This document shows positions 3,981 to 41,873 of a DNA stretch of 64,000 nucleotides, piece after piece (the first letter of the stretch is position 1; every line of letters starts with the position of its first letter). The stretch comes from Bacteroidota bacterium (GTDB taxonomy: Bacteria > Bacteroidota > Bacteroidia > Bacteroidales > Prolixibacteraceae). The notes under the pieces were generated by a model. The model was not told the DNA's origin. It saw nothing but the letters and a program-made list of their open reading frames with translations, and did no database searches. The translations under genes were made by a program, and so were the position numbers. Where the stretch lies: assembly GCA_030698405.1 (NCBI GenBank), contig JAUYMU010000002.1:1-64000 (forward strand), in the 5' to 3' direction.

Positions 3981-5660
3981 ATGGATAAAAAGATAAATAA
4001 ATACAGCGAAACCATTACGCAGGACGATACCCTTCCTGCAGCTCAGGCCATGCTTTATGCATGGATGAAAACGACCTTAAAAAAGGTCAGGTTGGCATAG
4101 TAAGTACAGGTTATCAGGGAAATCCATGCAACATGCACCTTAATGGATTGGCCGATGAAGTGAAAAAAGGAGTAGACGGGCAGGATGGATTATATGGATT
4201 AATCTTTCATACAATTGGGGTAAGCGATGGGATTACAAACGGAACTGAAGGCATGAAATATTCGTTGCCCTCAAGGGAGATTATTGCCGATTCAATTGAA
4301 ACGGTTGTAAGTGCACAATTCTATGATGCTGTGATTCCCATCGTGGTTTGCGACAAAAACATGCCAGGCGCAATGATCGCCCTTGGACGCCTGAACAGGC
4401 CTTCGATACTTGTTTATGGAGGCACGGTAAAAAAAGGAACATGGAAAGGTGAAGGCTTGAACATCGTTTCGGCTTTCGAAGCTTATGGAGAAAGAATTAA
4501 AGGCAATATTTCAGACGAAGATTACAAAGGCATCATAAAAAATTGCATTCCGGGAGCTGGTGCTTGCGGGGTATGTACACCGCCAATACCATGGCTTCGG
4601 GCATCGAATGCATGGGCATGAGTTTGCCCTATTCATCGTCGAGTCCGGCATTGGCAAAAGAAAAAGGACTGGAATGTGGACAAATTTGGCTGGCAATAAA
4701 AAAACTTATGTTAGCAGATATTAAACCCAAAGACATCATGACCAAGCAGGCATTTGAAAATGCTATCACCTTGATCATGACACTCGGTGGATCGACAAAC
4801 GCTGTAATTCATCTTATTGCCATGGCCAAAGCCGTTGATGTAGCATTGAATATCAACGACTTTCAGCGAATCAGCGACAAGACCCCTTTCATTGCCGATT
4901 TAAAACCAAGTGGTAAATTTTTATTCGAGGACCTGCATGATGTGGGAGGAATTCCCGGCCTGATGAGATATCTTTTGAAAGAAGGATTTCTGGAAGGCAA
5001 CTGCCTGACCGTCACAGGAAAAACTTTGGGCGAAAATCTCGAAGAAGTTACGGACCTCGCAAAAGGTCAAAAAATTATTCGTCCCATTGGAGAGCCGATA
5101 CAAAAACATGGGCATATACAAATTCTGTATGGTAATCTGGCCGAAGAAGGCGCAGTAGCGAAAATTACAGGTAAAGAAGCCGAATTGTTTACCGTGCCGG
5201 CCATAGTATTTGAAGATGAATTTGAAGATGAATTTGAAGCTGTTAAAGGAATTCAGTCGAAAGTTTCCAAAGGAGATGTAATTGTGATCAGACATTCAGG
5301 CCCAAAAGGTGCTCCGGGAATGCCTGAAATGTTGAAACCTACCAGTGTGGTTATGGGAGCCAAATTGGGTAAAGATGTGGCATTGATTACCGATGGTCGG
5401 TTTTCTGGGGGCTCACATGGATTTGTGGTGGGGCTATTACTCCTGAAGCCTCTGAAGGTGGATTGATCGGTTTGCTTCAGGATGGAGATATCATTACCAT
5501 TGATGCAGTTAACAATCGACTGGATGTTGACCTTAGCGAATCCGAAATTTTAACCAGACGAAAAGCATGGGTAAAACCACCCTATAGAGCCGCCACCGGT
5601 ATATTGAAAAAATACATTGATACGGTATCCACTGCATCTGAAGGATGCACAACGGTATAA
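3981..5660 (+). pseudogene. ilvD: Dihydroxy-acid dehydratase (ilvD) pseudogene with three frameshifts
   Basis: The three reading frames taken in turn spell most of an IlvD/Edd-family Fe-S dehydratase of the branched-chain amino acid pathway. The pieces are a start at 3981 (QDDTLPAAQAMLYA), GNPCNMHLN (about 4120), the cluster loop with CDKNMPG (about 4350), PGAGACG then [10 protein letters not shown] (about 4560-4600), [12 protein letters not shown] (about 4780), [10 protein letters not shown] (about 5395), and DGDIITIDA at the end. Frame breaks lie near 4059, near 4567-4572 (one G missing inside ACGGMYTANT) and near 5435. Long stretches between breaks remain well conserved, so decay is recent. 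A functional copy presumably exists elsewhere in the genome. Confidence 0.88.
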
Positions 5661-19974: not shown

Positions 19975-20003
19975 TTTGGTAATTTGATTTTGCCTTATCT
20001 TAG
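19975..20003 (+). promoter_or_regulatory. Probable promoter of the riboswitch transcript
   Basis: TTTG at 19975-19978 and TATCTTAG at 19996-20003 (one mismatch to TAnnTTTG) have close to the usual -33/-7 spacing and sit just before the riboswitch. Confidence 0.45.
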
Positions 20004-20011
20004 CCGCCGAA

Positions 20012-20180
20012 TTGGTGATACTTTTAAACGAGTATCAAGAGGGAATCCGGTTAAAATCCGGAGCTGTACCCGCAGCTGTAAACTCTGTTGAATTTTTGCA
20101 ACTCACGCCACTGACCTGATTAAAACGGGATGGGAAGGCCGCAAAAATAGAGTGAGCCAGAAGACCTGCCATTTCGTGAT
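20012..20180 (+). ncRNA. Cobalamin (AdoCbl) riboswitch
   Basis: Class-defining blocks appear in order: TTGGTG, AAGAGGGAATCCGGT, AAATCCGGAGCTGTACCCGC, AGCTGTAA, GCCACTG, GGGAAGGC, and GAGCCAGAAGACCTGCC. This is a complete cobalamin riboswitch on the plus strand. It precedes the DUF4465 gene start by about 120 nt, so the gene should be shut off when B12 is abundant. Immediately after the core, CCAAGCTTTTTC-type complementarity around 20191-20213 could form the expression platform. Confidence 0.93.
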
Positions 20181-20299
20181 ACAATATTCAAAGCTTTCGG
20201 GAGAAAAAGCTTGGAGTAACCAAAAAAGATAGTAAAAAAGGTTATTTCAGCAGTTTTGCGTATTGTAATTGTTTTGAAACCATTCAAAATTATTACATA

Positions 20300-34235: not shown

Positions 34236-34309
34236 CGGGGTGTAGCGCAGCCTGGTAGCGTATCCGTCTGGGGGGCGGGGGGTCGCAAGTTCAAATCTTG
34301 TCACCCCGA
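34236..34309 (+). tRNA. tRNA-Pro (anticodon GGG)
   Basis: Acceptor CGGGGTG pairs with CACCCCG (34302-34308); D arm GCGC/GCGT; anticodon stem TCCGT/GCGGG with loop CTGGGGG (anticodon GGG); T arm GCAAG/CTTGT with loop TTCAAAT; discriminator A. CCA is not encoded. It is followed by an integrase gene 290 bp away, so its 3' end is the likely integration site of the island. Confidence 0.95.
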
Positions 34310-34334
34310 CAAAATGGGATTCCAAACCCAATCA

Positions 34335-34600: not shown

Positions 34601-35833
34601 ATGAAAAAAGTAACATTAGAAATTCATTTTGTGCTTCGTACGAACAAGATTATGAATGGATTAGCACCAATTTATGCACGTATTACTGTAAATTCAAAAC
34701 GATGCGAAGTCTCAATTAAGCGAAAAATTTCTATCGATAGTTGGAACTCCGGGAAAGGGATGGCTAAACCTTCAACAAATGAGAATAAGCAATTAAACTC
34801 TTACCTGGAACAAATTCGAAAGATGGTGGTCGAATCTTACCAGGACCTTGTGCTGAGCAAGCAAGTCATCACAACGGAAGCTATAAAAAATAAGTTTCTG
34901 GGTCTGGATATTTCTGATATGACCCTATGTAAACTGATCGATTATCACAATACAAACGGTAAAGAATCCCTAAGGTGGGGAACGCTAAAAAACTATTTTA
35001 CAACTCAGAAATATATAATACTTTTCCTCAAAGAAAAGTACAAGACTTCCGATATTTATCTTAAAAGTCTGAATTACAAATTTTTGGTTGATTTTGAATA
35101 TTTTCTTAGAAAACATTCACCTGTTGACCATCAGCGGCCTATGGAGAACAATACTGTAATGAAACACATTGAACGTCTTAGAAAGATGATCAAATTGGCT
35201 ATAAGATATGAATGGCTGGAAAAGGATCCATTCATCGCTTTCAAACAAAAGTTTCATCGATTTGAAAGAGGTTACCTTTCTGAAGGAGAACTAAAAATTA
35301 TTGAAGAAAAAGAATTCTCGATTGCCCGACTACAGCATGTTAAAGATCTATTTATCTTTAGCTGCTACACCGGATTATCTTACATTGATCTGATACATTT
35401 ATCACCAGAAAACATCCAAATTGGTATTGATAAGAAGTTTTGGTTATTTACAAGCAGGGAAAAAACTGACAATCCAGTTAGAATTCCCATTCTGCCAGTT
35501 GCAATGGATATTATCAGTAAATACAAAACTGATCCGAAAGCATTAGTTTATAATCGACTTTTTCCTCCTATCTCAAACCAAAAACTAAACAGCTATTTAA
35601 AAGAAATTGCAGATATATGCCAAATCACCAAAAATTTTACTTTTCATTTAGCCCGACATACTTTTGCTACAACCGTAACTCTAACGAATGGTGTTCCGAT
35701 TGAGTCAGTAAGCAAGATGCTTGGTCATTCAAAAATATCGACAACTCAAATCTATGCAAAAGTAGTTGAGAAGAAACTTGGCGAGGATATGGAGAAATTA
35801 AAGGAAAGATTGAACGAAAAACGAGTGGTTTAA
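34601..35833 (+). CDS. Tyrosine recombinase (IntDOT-like integrase)
   Basis: 410 residues. Residues 1-100 form an arm-binding domain (EIHFVLRTNKIMNGLAPIYARI), 110-210 a SAM-like core-binding domain, 220-400 the catalytic domain. TFHLARHTFAT gives the HxxR box and TTQIYAKV the nucleophilic Tyr. The first catalytic Arg position reads TGLSYIDLIHL with Ser, the substitution also known from IntDOT of the Bacteroides conjugative transposon. Placed just downstream of tRNA-Pro, it is the probable integrase of the right-hand island. Confidence 0.93.
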   Translation: MKKVTLEIHFVLRTNKIMNGLAPIYARITVNSKRCEVSIKRKISIDSWNSGKGMAKPSTNENKQLNSYLEQIRKMVVESYQDLVLSKQVITTEAIKNKFLGLDISDMTLCKLIDYHNTNGKESLRWGTLKNYFTTQKYIILFLKEKYKTSDIYLKSLNYKFLVDFEYFLRKHSPVDHQRPMENNTVMKHIERLRKMIKLAIRYEWLEKDPFIAFKQKFHRFERGYLSEGELKIIEEKEFSIARLQHVKDLFIFSCYTGLSYIDLIHLSPENIQIGIDKKFWLFTSREKTDNPVRIPILPVAMDIISKYKTDPKALVYNRLFPPISNQKLNSYLKEIADICQITKNFTFHLARHTFATTVTLTNGVPIESVSKMLGHSKISTTQIYAKVVEKKLGEDMEKLKERLNEKRVV

Positions 35834-38152: not shown

Positions 38153-39099
38153 CTATAACTTTCTTTTGGCCCTGTTTTTCTGTTTCTTCAGCTTATATCT
38201 TTTGTTTCTGAAACCCGATCCATCATCAAATTGAGTTTTTACCTGCCGGATCAATTCTTTCAAAACCAACGATTTTAAAACTCCACTACTTTGCTCAATT
38301 AGGTCAAATTGGGGGTGCTTTTCAAAATGTTGACTCAAGGTCTTCTGTTCAGGTAAATAATACCTCGGTCTTTCCTCAAAATCTGACATTTTAATCGGAT
38401 GCCGAACCGGATTTCCGTTTCCATCAGTTACAAATACCAGATGCCCTTTCTGAACTTGCCTGATTTCTATATGAAACAGCTTCAAAGCATCATCGTACAT
38501 TTGTTTGCTGCTGATAAAATCCATCCGATTGAGTTCGGTGAATAGGTTGTCAAGGTTTTGTTTCAGGTTCTTGCTGTATGCCGTAAATTTCAGATTGATC
38601 TTTTCATTTGGCTCATCATTCTTTAACTGATAGGTTTGTTCCAACTCCTTGATGAACTTCTGTACTTTATCCTTTTCAAAATTGTCTTTGATCTTCTTGC
38701 CGCTTTGCTTGTCAATCCGGGTGGAAACAATATGAAAATGCACCCTGTCAATATCAGCATGTCGGTAAACCAGGTAGGGTTGGCTACCATAACCCAATTG
38801 TTTCATCAGGTTGTCAAGTTCGGTTCGAATACCCTTTTCTCCCATTCGGATCATGTCATTCATGGTTGGGTTAAAGGAGATGTGAAGTCCTTTATTTTTA
38901 ACCCTGGTATTTGAATCTTCAATTCTCTTAAAAATCTGGTGGCGATGCTGAGCAGAGTAAATAAATGGATTCACCGAAGGTGTATTCCGGCTATGGTAAA
39001 AGGTGGCTTTACCTTCTTTGGCTTTCCGCTCATTGTAAAAAAAAGCATTCGCGGTGCTTGATGCCTGATGTGATTAATGGGAATTATTCTGGGCTCCAT
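38153..39099 (-). pseudogene. Relaxase/mobilization nuclease, 5' frameshift
   Basis: The ORF 38153-38974 gives 273 residues of a MobA/VirD2-like relaxase: GLHISFNPTMNDMIRMGEKGI and the metal-binding histidines in DIDRVHFHIVSTRID. Upstream on the same strand the frame ASSTANAFFYNERKAKEGKATFYHSRNTPS continues the protein without a start codon. The natural start MEPRIIPINHIR (ATG at 39099) lies in another frame, so a shift near 39060 separates start and body. The catalytic tyrosine region may be affected. It suggests that the island's own mobilization is crippled. Translation from an internal start cannot be excluded. Confidence 0.7.
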
Positions 39100-39228: not shown

Positions 39229-40521
39229 TCACTTCTTCTTCTTCTTATTATTATTTGAGTTTTTGAGTTTCTTTTTCAAAGTGATACCACTTGCAGTTAA
39301 ACGGTAACGTTGATTTGGATGATTTGGACTGTCAGGAAAAGTCATTTCAATAAATCCCGATTCAAGTGCTGGAAGCAGATAGTTATCTCTGAAGTACTCA
39401 CGATGTTTTAACTGGAGAATATTTTGTATTTCAGCACTTCGCAATTCATTTTCTGTTACAAGTATAACTCTTTTCACTTCCTCACTTACTTGTCCAGTAA
39501 CTTGTCCAGTAACTTGTCCGGTAACTTGACCGGTATCACCTTTATTAACTTCTTCATTATCTACATTTTCAGCATGTTCGGTAAGTTCGGTAGGTTCACC
39601 GGTAACTTCCCCACCAGCTTCCCCGGCAGTTTTTAAGGTACGCCAAATAATTGTTTTAAAATCTTCTTCCTCAATAAACTCCGGTTCTTTCAATCCTGCT
39701 TCATTACACAAACGAATAATGTCACCGGTACCGGTTCCCATACGCTCAATATATCCTGCCAAATACATCGGCTCTGCCAATAAAGGATTTTCCGGGATGG
39801 ACCGGTGCGGTTTACGGAGTTTAGCCGGACTCAATCCCAATGGCAAAGTTCCCGGATTCCATATTTCGAGACGGTCTTTAAACAGCATCACCTGGACACT
39901 TCCGTTACTGGTATAATCGCGGTGGGCCACTGCATTTACGATGGCTTCAGAAACGGCAGCACGCGGAAGTTCATATTGGATGGGTACCTGATTGCTAACT
40001 TCCCGGGTTCCAACCGACACATCCACTTTCGACAATACAAAATCGACGGCCTGATTCACCCGTTGAAATACATCGCCTTTATAAACCTGGTAGGCCGGAA
40101 TGGGCTTTACTACATGGAAGCCATGAAAATGAGCACATCTAACTTCTGAAGTAATAAAAAAGCGCTGTGGTAGTTTGCCGAACAACAAAATGGAAGCATT
40201 ACTTACACGGTTGTTCTCCAATAAGTTCAGATGAGTTAAAATGGTTTCCAGAGTAGATTCAACCGGCAAAGGAAAACCTCTTTTTGCTCTCGCTATGTGT
40301 ACAAATTCCCGGATTTTATCATGATCCAGATCCTCCATGGTTGCTCTATCGTTCAGGGCAGCATCAAAAGGACCGGTACGAATAATTTCCTTTTCCTTGA
40401 GGTAATTAACCAGCGAGGCATAAACCCCTGAATTAAGGTCATCGCCCGAATTAAAGCGTTTTCGCACAAGGTCGATCCCTATCTTTTGAATGAGTTGGTT
40501 CATTTTCGCATGGCGTTGCAA
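39229..40521 (-). CDS. ATP-binding C-terminal part of an interrupted DUF4062 protein
   Basis: 430-residue ORF. After a lead-in (MNQLIQKIGIDLVRKRF) it has the AlbA_2-linked region TLETILTHLNLLENNRVSNASILLFGK, a GHKL-type ATPase stretch (LPRAAVSEAIVNAVAHRDYTSNGSVQVML, DRLEIWNPG, MGTGTGDIIRLC), a four-residue tandem linker (TGQV x4, 12-bp DNA repeats near 39488-39535), then a winged-helix tail and a polylysine end. It has lost its N-terminal DUF4062 domain: that lies on the opposite strand (40525-40759) with its first 29 codons again on this strand (40842-40756). Alone it might still be made from the in-frame ATG. Confidence 0.75.
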   Translation of the reverse strand: MQRHAKMNQLIQKIGIDLVRKRFNSGDDLNSGVYASLVNYLKEKEIIRTGPFDAALNDRATMEDLDHDKIREFVHIARAKRGFPLPVESTLETILTHLNLLENNRVSNASILLFGKLPQRFFITSEVRCAHFHGFHVVKPIPAYQVYKGDVFQRVNQAVDFVLSKVDVSVGTREVSNQVPIQYELPRAAVSEAIVNAVAHRDYTSNGSVQVMLFKDRLEIWNPGTLPLGLSPAKLRKPHRSIPENPLLAEPMYLAGYIERMGTGTGDIIRLCNEAGLKEPEFIEEEDFKTIIWRTLKTAGEAGGEVTGEPTELTEHAENVDNEEVNKGDTGQVTGQVTGQVTGQVSEEVKRVILVTENELRSAEIQNILQLKHREYFRDNYLLPALESGFIEMTFPDSPNHPNQRYRLTASGITLKKKLKNSNNNKKKKK

Positions 40522-40771
40522 GCCCGATCCGTTGCTGGGGCTTTTTTTCGAGCCATTTTTATTCGAGAACTTACCTGCTTCCGACCAGAGGGCTGATTCG
40601 GTTTACATTAACGAAGTTGCTAAATGTGATATTTATCTTGGACTGTTTGGTACCAAATACGGTTTTGAAGATGGCGATGGTATTTCGCCTACAGAACGGG
40701 AATTTGACGAAGCAACCCGGCAACACAAAACCCGGCTTATTTATGTGTTAGGTGAATCGCTGTGCAAATAA
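40490..40771 (+). pseudogene. Inverted DUF4062 fragment (plus-strand ORF)
   Basis: 93-codon frame created by the inversion. Residues 13-90 are real DUF4062 sequence (DPLLGLFFEPFLFE, CDIYLGLFGTKYGFEDGDGISPTEREFDEATRQHKTRLIYVLGES). The first 12 codons and the last three come from the flanking antisense DNA. No promoter on this strand is evident, so expression is doubtful. DUF4062 is TIR-like in fold and often linked to antiviral or NTPase proteins. Confidence 0.8.
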
Positions 40772-40876
40772 ACGAAGAGGTTTTGCCTCTCACTGGCAAA
40801 CTCTGTTTGTACGCTGCTAATAAAGACTTTCAGTTTCCTCATACCAATAATCGTTTTATCTTTTCATCCGATGTCA

Positions 40877-40903
40877 CAAATGTAATGCTTTCAATTTGTT
40901 CAA
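40877..40903 (-). promoter_or_regulatory. Promoter of the DUF4062-ATPase gene
   Basis: On the minus strand TACATTTG (TAnnTTTG; plus 40877-40884) lies 19 nt after a TTG (plus 40901-40903), 35 nt before ATG 40842. Confidence 0.55.
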
Positions 40904-40962
40904 TATTACTTTCTTTTTAAGAAAGTGCATCCCATAGCTTTACACAGGAAAGATTGTTTCAC

Positions 40963-41873
40963 CTATACAAAAATGAACTTCTCATTCGAGAGCTCTTTTT
41001 CTCCATCAAAACGGTAAGCAGCCAAAACCCCATTTCTGGCGACACTGTAATCAAGGCAGCAGATGTTTCCTCTTAATAATTCAGGATGTCCATTCATCCA
41101 GTAGTGTCCAAAAAAGACTGGCTTTTCCTTTTCAGAATAGTAATTTGAGGAATGCATCATAGAAATGTCAAACGGTTCTTTAGGAAGGCTTTCAAGTGGA
41201 ATAACACTCATTTCACGGTAGCTGTATTGCTTTGGATCCTGCCACCATTTTATCCTGATTTCATTTCGTTCTGTTGCATCTTTGTCGAAAAAAGAAAGAC
41301 CTGTGGGCATCCGGACTTCTTTGCCCTTCAGCGTTTCATCAATTGTACGGTATAGTTCTGTTCCTTTCTTAACCGATTGATGAAGAGCAGTCTCATTCAA
41401 CCTGTCATTATTTAATGCTGAACGTAGAAAAGTGATGTTATCATTATCCCAGCAAGCATGTACGGCACGGAAACTATCCGTTTCATAATGGAGTGGCAAA
41501 GTCTTGAACCATTCAAGGTAATCTTCGTATTCTTCCTGCTTGTTTTGAAATTGATGAAGCGTCGCTAGTGCTGAATAATGTTCTTGATCAAATGCTTCCT
41601 CAAATGGCCTCCTTCGCGTTCCTCGTAATGAAAACACAAAGCATTGTATTCATGGTTTCCCATCAGGGCTATGGCATTTCCGCTTTCGACCATTTGCCGG
41701 ACTATTCTCAGGGTTTTTCTGATCCGGGGTCCTCGATCAATGTAATCTCCAATGAACAAAACTTTCCGTGTAGGATGGCTATATACCCCATTATAAGCCG
41801 AGTAGCCAAGCTTTTCCAGTAACTCTATAATCTTATCCGCATATCCATGTATGTCACCAATAAAATCGATCAT
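40963..41873 (-). pseudogene. Metallophosphoesterase gene with one frameshift
   Basis: ATG 41873 begins DFIGDIHGYADKI, followed by VLFIGDYIDRGPRI and IALMGNHEYNALCFHY, the calcineurin-type metal motifs of ApaH/PPP-like phosphatases. The frame stops at 41565 (NIIQH then TAG). The second frame carries on with ATLHQFQNKQEEYEDYLEWFK, AVHACWD, FFGHYWM and CLDYSVARNGVLAAYRFDGE to 40963. One missing base near 41570 explains the break. The active-site half is intact in the first frame but the C-terminal metal histidines lie in the second, so the product should be inactive. A sequencing error would restore it. Confidence 0.8.

Follow-up and report, generated by a model that had tools for sequence, protein, structure and literature searches.

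In a 64,000-nucleotide stretch of the genome of a bacterium of the family Prolixibacteraceae (hereafter, the window), one minus-strand gene contains an internal piece of 235 bp (40525-40759) that is flipped in place, with the result that the reading frame is disrupted. The inversion is genuine in the assembly and has well-defined ends. We consider it quite probable that it arose as a recent, one-off, microhomology-mediated microinversion within a tRNA-Pro island, breaking a single-copy gene for a protein that combines a DUF4062 domain, a GHKL-type ATPase domain and a Fic-like_C domain.

The inverted segment and its ends

In the present orientation, the minus-strand frame that begins at 40842 encodes 28 codons of the DUF4062 protein and then runs into a stop codon five codons inside the segment, so that the product of the N-terminal frame is only 33 amino acids long. 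The missing middle of the protein is found on the plus strand, within an open reading frame at 40490-40771, between two minus-strand pieces, and the remainder lies on the minus strand below 40525 (Table 1). Flipping the segment back in silico yields a single open frame of 544 codons, that is, 537 amino acids counted from the ATG.

Table 1. Parts of the broken gene, ends of the flipped segment and landmarks of the island in the window
Feature	Position	Strand	Basis or remark
tRNA-Pro	34236-34310		
Tyrosine integrase (likely that of the island)	34601-35833		next to tRNA-Pro
C-terminal part of the gene, residues 107-537: end of the DUF4062 region, HATPase_c_4 ATPase domain, Fic-like_C domain	39229..40524	-	ORF 39229-40521, Pfam, forward match to G012
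Flipped 235-bp segment, residues 29-106, including the invariant E87	40525..40759	+	Pfam, reversed match to G012
Left microhomology arm, CGAT	40525..40528	+	
Right microhomology arm, ATCG	40756..40759	+	reverse complement of CGAT
N-terminal part from the ATG: residues 1-27 and two bases of codon 28	40760..40842	-	
TACATTTG, upstream of the ATG	40877..40884	-	shared with G012; similar to the Bacteroidota -7 box TAnnTTTG

The most informative comparison is with G012, a genome of the same genus that carries an intact ortholog (84% protein identity; the gene covers residues 1-533 and contains no stop). In a blastn alignment with G012, 39071-40527 matches in the forward orientation (82.6% identity), 40526-40759 is reversed (84.2%), and 40757-40895 is again forward (93.5%); a DNA search of genomes returned the same three pieces for G012 among the matches listed. 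Chance similarity is excluded as the source of the inversion signal. The inversion cuts the DUF4062 domain (PF13271) into pieces on two strands: domain positions 23-82 are recognised on the plus-strand piece (E = 1.4e-14, 54.5 bits, above the gathering score of 24.7), and positions 1-22 on the minus-strand piece 40744-40842 with a score below that threshold (E = 0.0027, 18.3 bits). The downstream piece contains the HATPase_c_4 (E = 5.7e-20) and Fic-like_C (E = 1.7e-24) domains.

The open frame by itself does not set the ends of the segment, given that 462 of the 4,800 combinations of breakpoints and frame produce 544 codons. By contrast, the fit to the intact G012 gene, for which 675 breakpoint pairs were tried, reaches its best value (324 of 375 bases identical) for exactly five equivalent pairs, from 40525/40759 to 40529/40755, with the next best at 322 bases. 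Because all five pairs have CGAT at the left end and ATCG at the right end, the breakpoints are ambiguous only over 4 bp; with one mismatch allowed, the repeat extends to 6 bp (CGATCC versus CGATTC). What is found here, namely, an exact inversion in place with a short inverted repeat at both ends, is the pattern of a microhomology-mediated microinversion.

The original prediction had proposed a 0.23-kb in-place inversion at these coordinates, a 537-residue protein read from the minus, plus and minus strands with the normal domain order, CGAT/ATCG breakpoints (6 bp with one mismatch), and restoration of the gene by flipping back. All of this is borne out: by the blastn alignment, in which only this piece is reversed between forward flanks; by the re-flip together with the Pfam matches on the three pieces; by the refit of the breakpoints to G012, the 6-bp extension likewise being right; and by the complete open frame of the re-inverted sequence. 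The further proposal that the promoter is intact fared less evenly. The region upstream is conserved in G012 at the level given above for the third piece, and both genomes contain TACATTTG (40884-40877 in the window), which we take to be a putative counterpart of the Bacteroidota -7 element (consensus TAnnTTTG), but a scan of 40480-41100 for promoters of the sigma-70 type found none. In principle, translation of the C-terminal ATPase part could still start at TTG 40521; the flip should abolish the DUF4062 enzyme.

It is unlikely that the inverted segment was created by chimeric reads or amplification chimeras in the course of library preparation or assembly. Such an artefact would require two chimeric joins, both at one 4-bp pair and both free of any loss or gain of bases, and a 4-bp repeat would hardly confuse an assembler; besides, the genome (138 contigs) has a completeness of 99.84% and a contamination of 0.37%. 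Inspection by eye of window positions 1-34500 against G012, G010 and G017 revealed no other short reversed piece between collinear matches (40 of the 123, 92 and 84 candidates, respectively, were scored, and 40 of 71, 82 and 64). In favour of an artefact is the single-base gap in the nearby gene at 40963-41873, which indicates that errors or decay exist in the vicinity.

Distribution in relatives and age of the inversion

In the genus, three of the 23 genomes searched match the gene at 1e-60 or better, namely, the window's own, G012 and G015; at the same threshold, the family yields at least 21 of 140 genomes, and a 404-residue query finds a match at 1e-40 in at least 23 of 393 genomes of an order-wide sample, the own genome being counted in both cases. 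Altogether, 64 loci were gathered, of which five were left out (three that overlap the gene itself and two others on its contig; L001 and L002 have exactly the sequence of the window) and 59 were searched piece by piece. The open frame of 544 amino acids that the homology searches assign to the window's own gene is at odds with its stop codons, and we take it to be a span that reads through the flipped segment. The middle and C-terminal pieces are on one strand in all 53 loci that carry both; these represent 50 distinct places (L009 is found again as L011 and L015, and L010 as L016). The six loci that lack the middle piece are L034 and L003-L007, the latter being five further ATPase genes of the window's own genome. 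Because the middle piece is unflipped in every one of the 53 other loci, the inversion is derived and, within the loci searched, confined to this genome. A recombinase-driven inverton would be expected to show conservation of the flip or of the repeat pair in relatives; there is no flipped copy among these loci, and the repeat pair is not conserved in the aligned orthologs.

The original prediction had named related strains as a check. In other genomes, the comparison could be made with the result just described; no strain of the same species was found among the sets of genomes, viral contigs and plasmids that were searched. The viral contigs contained no match to a pattern for the N-side junction, whichever orientation was used; three stretches fitted a pattern for the C-terminal part, but none was confirmed as a relative. 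Two Legionella plasmid records match at about 50% identity (E of 1e-40 or better), and the genome contigs contributed four loci out of 33 candidate stretches, L011 being identical to the G012 locus and L013 lying on the same contig.

Apart from the flip, the gene is intact. The re-joined 537 codons contain no stop and no frameshift, and the comparison with G012 gives low dN/dS values throughout: 0.07 (residues 1-28), 0.05 (the flipped residues 29-106), 0.11 (residues 107-430) and 0.145 (whole gene), at a dS of 0.64. The non-synonymous changes on the window branch and on the G012 branch number 8.5 and 4 with L022 as the outgroup (p = 0.13), 18 and 13 with L018 (p = 0.22), and 12 and 11.5 with L019 (p = 0.65), and synonymous changes are fewer on the window branch with each of the three; the non-synonymous share is higher on the window branch with all three outgroups, never significantly. 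Given that a random substitution in the gene has a 3.7% chance of creating a stop, the intact frame of 537 codons limits the neutral divergence since the loss to at most about 0.022-0.008 at 95%, under the simple assumption that indels occur at 5-20% of the substitution rate. Because the gene is otherwise intact and its dN/dS is low, the flip is young compared with the divergence from G012, unless it is reversible and the gene has often been restored.

Other disrupted copies were observed as well. Contig C102 of G012 carries, at about 50.3-51.0 kb, a second DUF4062 gene copy with an internal deletion (L013/L066), which retains residues 1-47 and then, closely, about 370-520. The homologs L021, L032, L034 and L061 each contain one stop inside the match (three of the 24 family rows and one of the 27 order-wide rows). 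Loss of the DUF4062-ATPase gene may not be rare.

Repeat arms, recombinases and the route of inversion

An inverted match of at least 4 bp was found at the ends of only 2.1% of 200,000 random inversions of 235 +/- 50 bp drawn in the window, and because chance accounts for so few, microhomology probably took part. CGAT/ATCG is not a recombinase-like site. Invertible segments are bounded by inverted repeats of 10-40 nt according to passages of PMC11892184, and typically of 10-20 nt in the relevant part of PMC5903667, compared to 4 bp here. When a longer inverted repeat was sought at the segment ends, the best candidate was TTGCA combined with CGAT, at unequal spacing: TTGCA, the only further shared motif, is at a distance of three bases from the CGAT arm at one end of the segment and of four at the other, so its two copies miss the register of the crossover by one base. 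The score of these extended arms is equalled or exceeded by 36% of 20,000 4-bp pairs sampled in the window and by 33% of the 1,584 such pairs within the gene. Nor are the arms conserved: among 11 aligned orthologs, the window alone has CGAT/ATCG at both points, G012, the nearest, has no inverted match there, and eight others have 0-2 bp. The remaining one, L010, has a 4-bp match of a different sequence, which counts against the one-off microhomology reading.

We infer from the junctions that the segment was inverted by copying. A repair or replication intermediate would have paired at the chance repeat CGAT/ATCG, the segment would have been copied from the opposite strand, and the end would then have been rejoined at the partner repeat, precisely and with no invertase involved. 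The route would be microhomology-mediated break-induced replication, with a double template switch less likely. The closest parallel is the set of human-chimpanzee microinversions described in PMC8755829, which, in the passages concerned, are precise, in place and flanked by short inverted repeats, with no bases lost; the inverted pieces are 17-33 nt long, and the arms exceed 8 nt in 39% of the cases, measure 4-8 nt in 50% and 3 nt in 11% (61% up to 8 nt). In those passages, template switching is held to explain the longer repeats and break-induced replication all of them, two template switches within 3-4 nt being doubted, and it is because the authors prefer the latter route for arms of 3-4 nt that we prefer it here. 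The window case differs in being bacterial, in a coding gene, and 235 bp in length. For yeast coding genes, part of PMC8604942 describes spacer inversions solely where the arms exceed 9 bp and the spacer measures a few bases. Because the microinversions of PMC8755829 are so short and the yeast arms longer than ours, extension of this route to a 235-bp bacterial segment would be a matter of analogy. If two breaks had been repaired by end-joining, the signature would be identical. A physical argument against site-specific recombination, made in the same part of PMC8755829, is inapplicable here because a 235-bp segment is long enough to loop.

The genome was also searched for recombinases as possible agents of the inversion. 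No serine recombinase of the Resolvase family (PF00239) was detected in it by a search that was positive in 10 of 14 control genomes. The tyrosine recombinase family (PF00589) is represented by seven matches above the cut-off in six loci, with the two adjoining pieces on C126 taken as one; as possible candidate agents, these count against a one-off accident. One of them is in the window, about 5 kb from the flipped segment, and is likely the integrase of a 30.6-kb island, because the tRNA 3' end that it adjoins is repeated 30.6 kb away. The arms of the flipped segment do not resemble the attachment region of this island, with 18% and 37% of 2,000 random stretches matching as well.

These observations bear on three further readings. 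Under the first, the segment is a phase-variable inverton that a site-specific recombinase flips to turn an NADase-type gene on and off. We regard this as improbable: the presence of tyrosine recombinases, the TTGCA near both ends, the purifying selection that is still seen in dN/dS and the upstream sequence conserved with G012 are compatible with it, but the 4-bp repeat, extended arms no better than chance, the register, the missing repeat pair in the nearest ortholog, the absence of detected serine recombinases in the genome and of any flipped copy among the 53 other loci, the tRNA-side position of the one tyrosine recombinase in the window, as expected of an island integrase, and the dissimilarity to the attachment region all argue against it. 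The main support of the switch hypothesis, a frame that flipping back would restore, is furthermore a property of any recent inversion. The second reading, which is very unlikely, is a low-frequency reversible switch at the 4-bp repeat, under which most cells would do without a costly abortive-infection NADase and a few would keep it. The third is an accidental inversion by the island integrase at poor secondary sites. It would account for the location of the gene on the same apparent island, between the 19-bp repeats, and for TTGCA close to each end, but the mismatch with the attachment region and with the register of the crossover makes it highly improbable. Of the two possibilities left open by the original prediction, the one-time microhomology inversion is thus supported, and the phase-variable off state only weakly, with several points against it.

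Chanin et al. 2024 and Milman et al., to judge by their titles, reportedly describe intragenic invertons and gene-altering programmed inversions in bacterial genes. As in those cases, a segment within a bacterial gene is flipped and the protein altered or cut; unlike them, the window case comes with no recombinase-type repeat and no evidence of two states and is unseen in relatives. A literature search, with subscription papers mostly beyond its scope, found no report of the present inversion or of a DUF4062 phase switch. A reversible switch, if true, would matter much more than a single accident, and it has little support here. As a one-off microinversion, the case is a clean, polarised bacterial example within a coding gene; its junctions are well fixed, and an intact relative in the same genus gives the direction. 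Such inversions would resemble short unrelated open reading frames in annotation pipelines and may be under-counted.

Function of the intact gene and its surroundings

DUF4062 is described, in the relevant part of the preprint PMC13174449, as the TIR-like NADase domain of the antiphage system Swarozyc. The N-terminal 157 residues of the re-joined protein match the deposited KpSwz chain (E = 2.9e-5). E87 is present in all 49 loci that cover the position (50 were aligned) and E85 in 47 of the 49. E87 aligns with position 84 of the KpSwz chain, which is an alanine in the deposited chain; the catalytic glutamate of KpSwz is reported as E97 (PMC13174449, in part), and with an offset counted by hand, position 84 is consistent with the mutated residue of an E97A construct. 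By alignment, E87 accordingly occupies the place of the catalytic glutamate expected in the TIR-like fold of a Swarozyc-type NADase, and being inside the flipped segment, it is displaced. A scan with PADLOC-DB 2.0.0 produced no DUF4062-specific match for the gene and only weak matches of Argonaute-associated profiles over the ATPase part.

The common features with KpSwz are thus the DUF4062 domain, the invariant glutamate at the reported catalytic position and the neighbourhood of defence genes. By contrast, the auxiliary domain through which KpSwz binds the phage portal is described as an HTH/winged fold (PMC13174449, in the passage concerned), whereas in the window the DUF4062 domain is fused to HATPase_c_4 and Fic-like_C; the gene is broken, and its NADase role is putative. 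We infer that the intact protein would be an NADase involved in phage defence. Because of the match to DUF4062 and KpSwz, the location of E87 in the flipped segment and the defence-like neighbours, the flip likely disarms an NAD-depleting defence gene: it would displace the presumed catalytic glutamate and shorten the product to 33 residues, so that the defence activity would be gone. A likely abortive-infection NADase gene could, then, be lost in a single event with every base retained.

The broken gene is apparently carried by the 30.6-kb island at tRNA-Pro, which is delimited by a 19-bp repeat of the tRNA 3' end (34294-34312, and again at 64868-64886 of the contig, just past the window). 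The island encodes a relaxase, AbiEii-type genes, a type IIG restriction-modification protein and a DruE-like helicase, and judging by these predicted genes, the surroundings of the broken gene are defence-like. Among five neighbours scanned with PADLOC, two are of the AbiEii type, one is the type IIG protein and one the DruE-like helicase; the fifth, another ATPase, has weaker matches only, e.g., to Argonaute-associated and CRISPR-regulator profiles.

The relaxase gene (38153-38974) is of the MobA/VirD2 type according to Pfam. Its 5' part together with 0.1 kb upstream (38357-39070) matches many genomes of the genus, among the matches listed, and this similarity ends where the similarity to the DUF4062 locus of G012 starts (39071), which suggests a recombination border at about 39070/39071. 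On the other side of the broken gene, the adjacent gene at 40963-41873, metallophosphatase-like by eye, is interrupted near 41566 by a gap of one base, and its relative in G012 (L065) is a single open frame of 306 codons; the gap reflects either gene decay or a sequencing error. Elsewhere in the window, a gene resembling dihydroxy-acid dehydratase by eye (4061-5466) consists of two overlapping frames and may be frameshifted, and a cobalamin riboswitch is located on the plus strand at 19996-20187.
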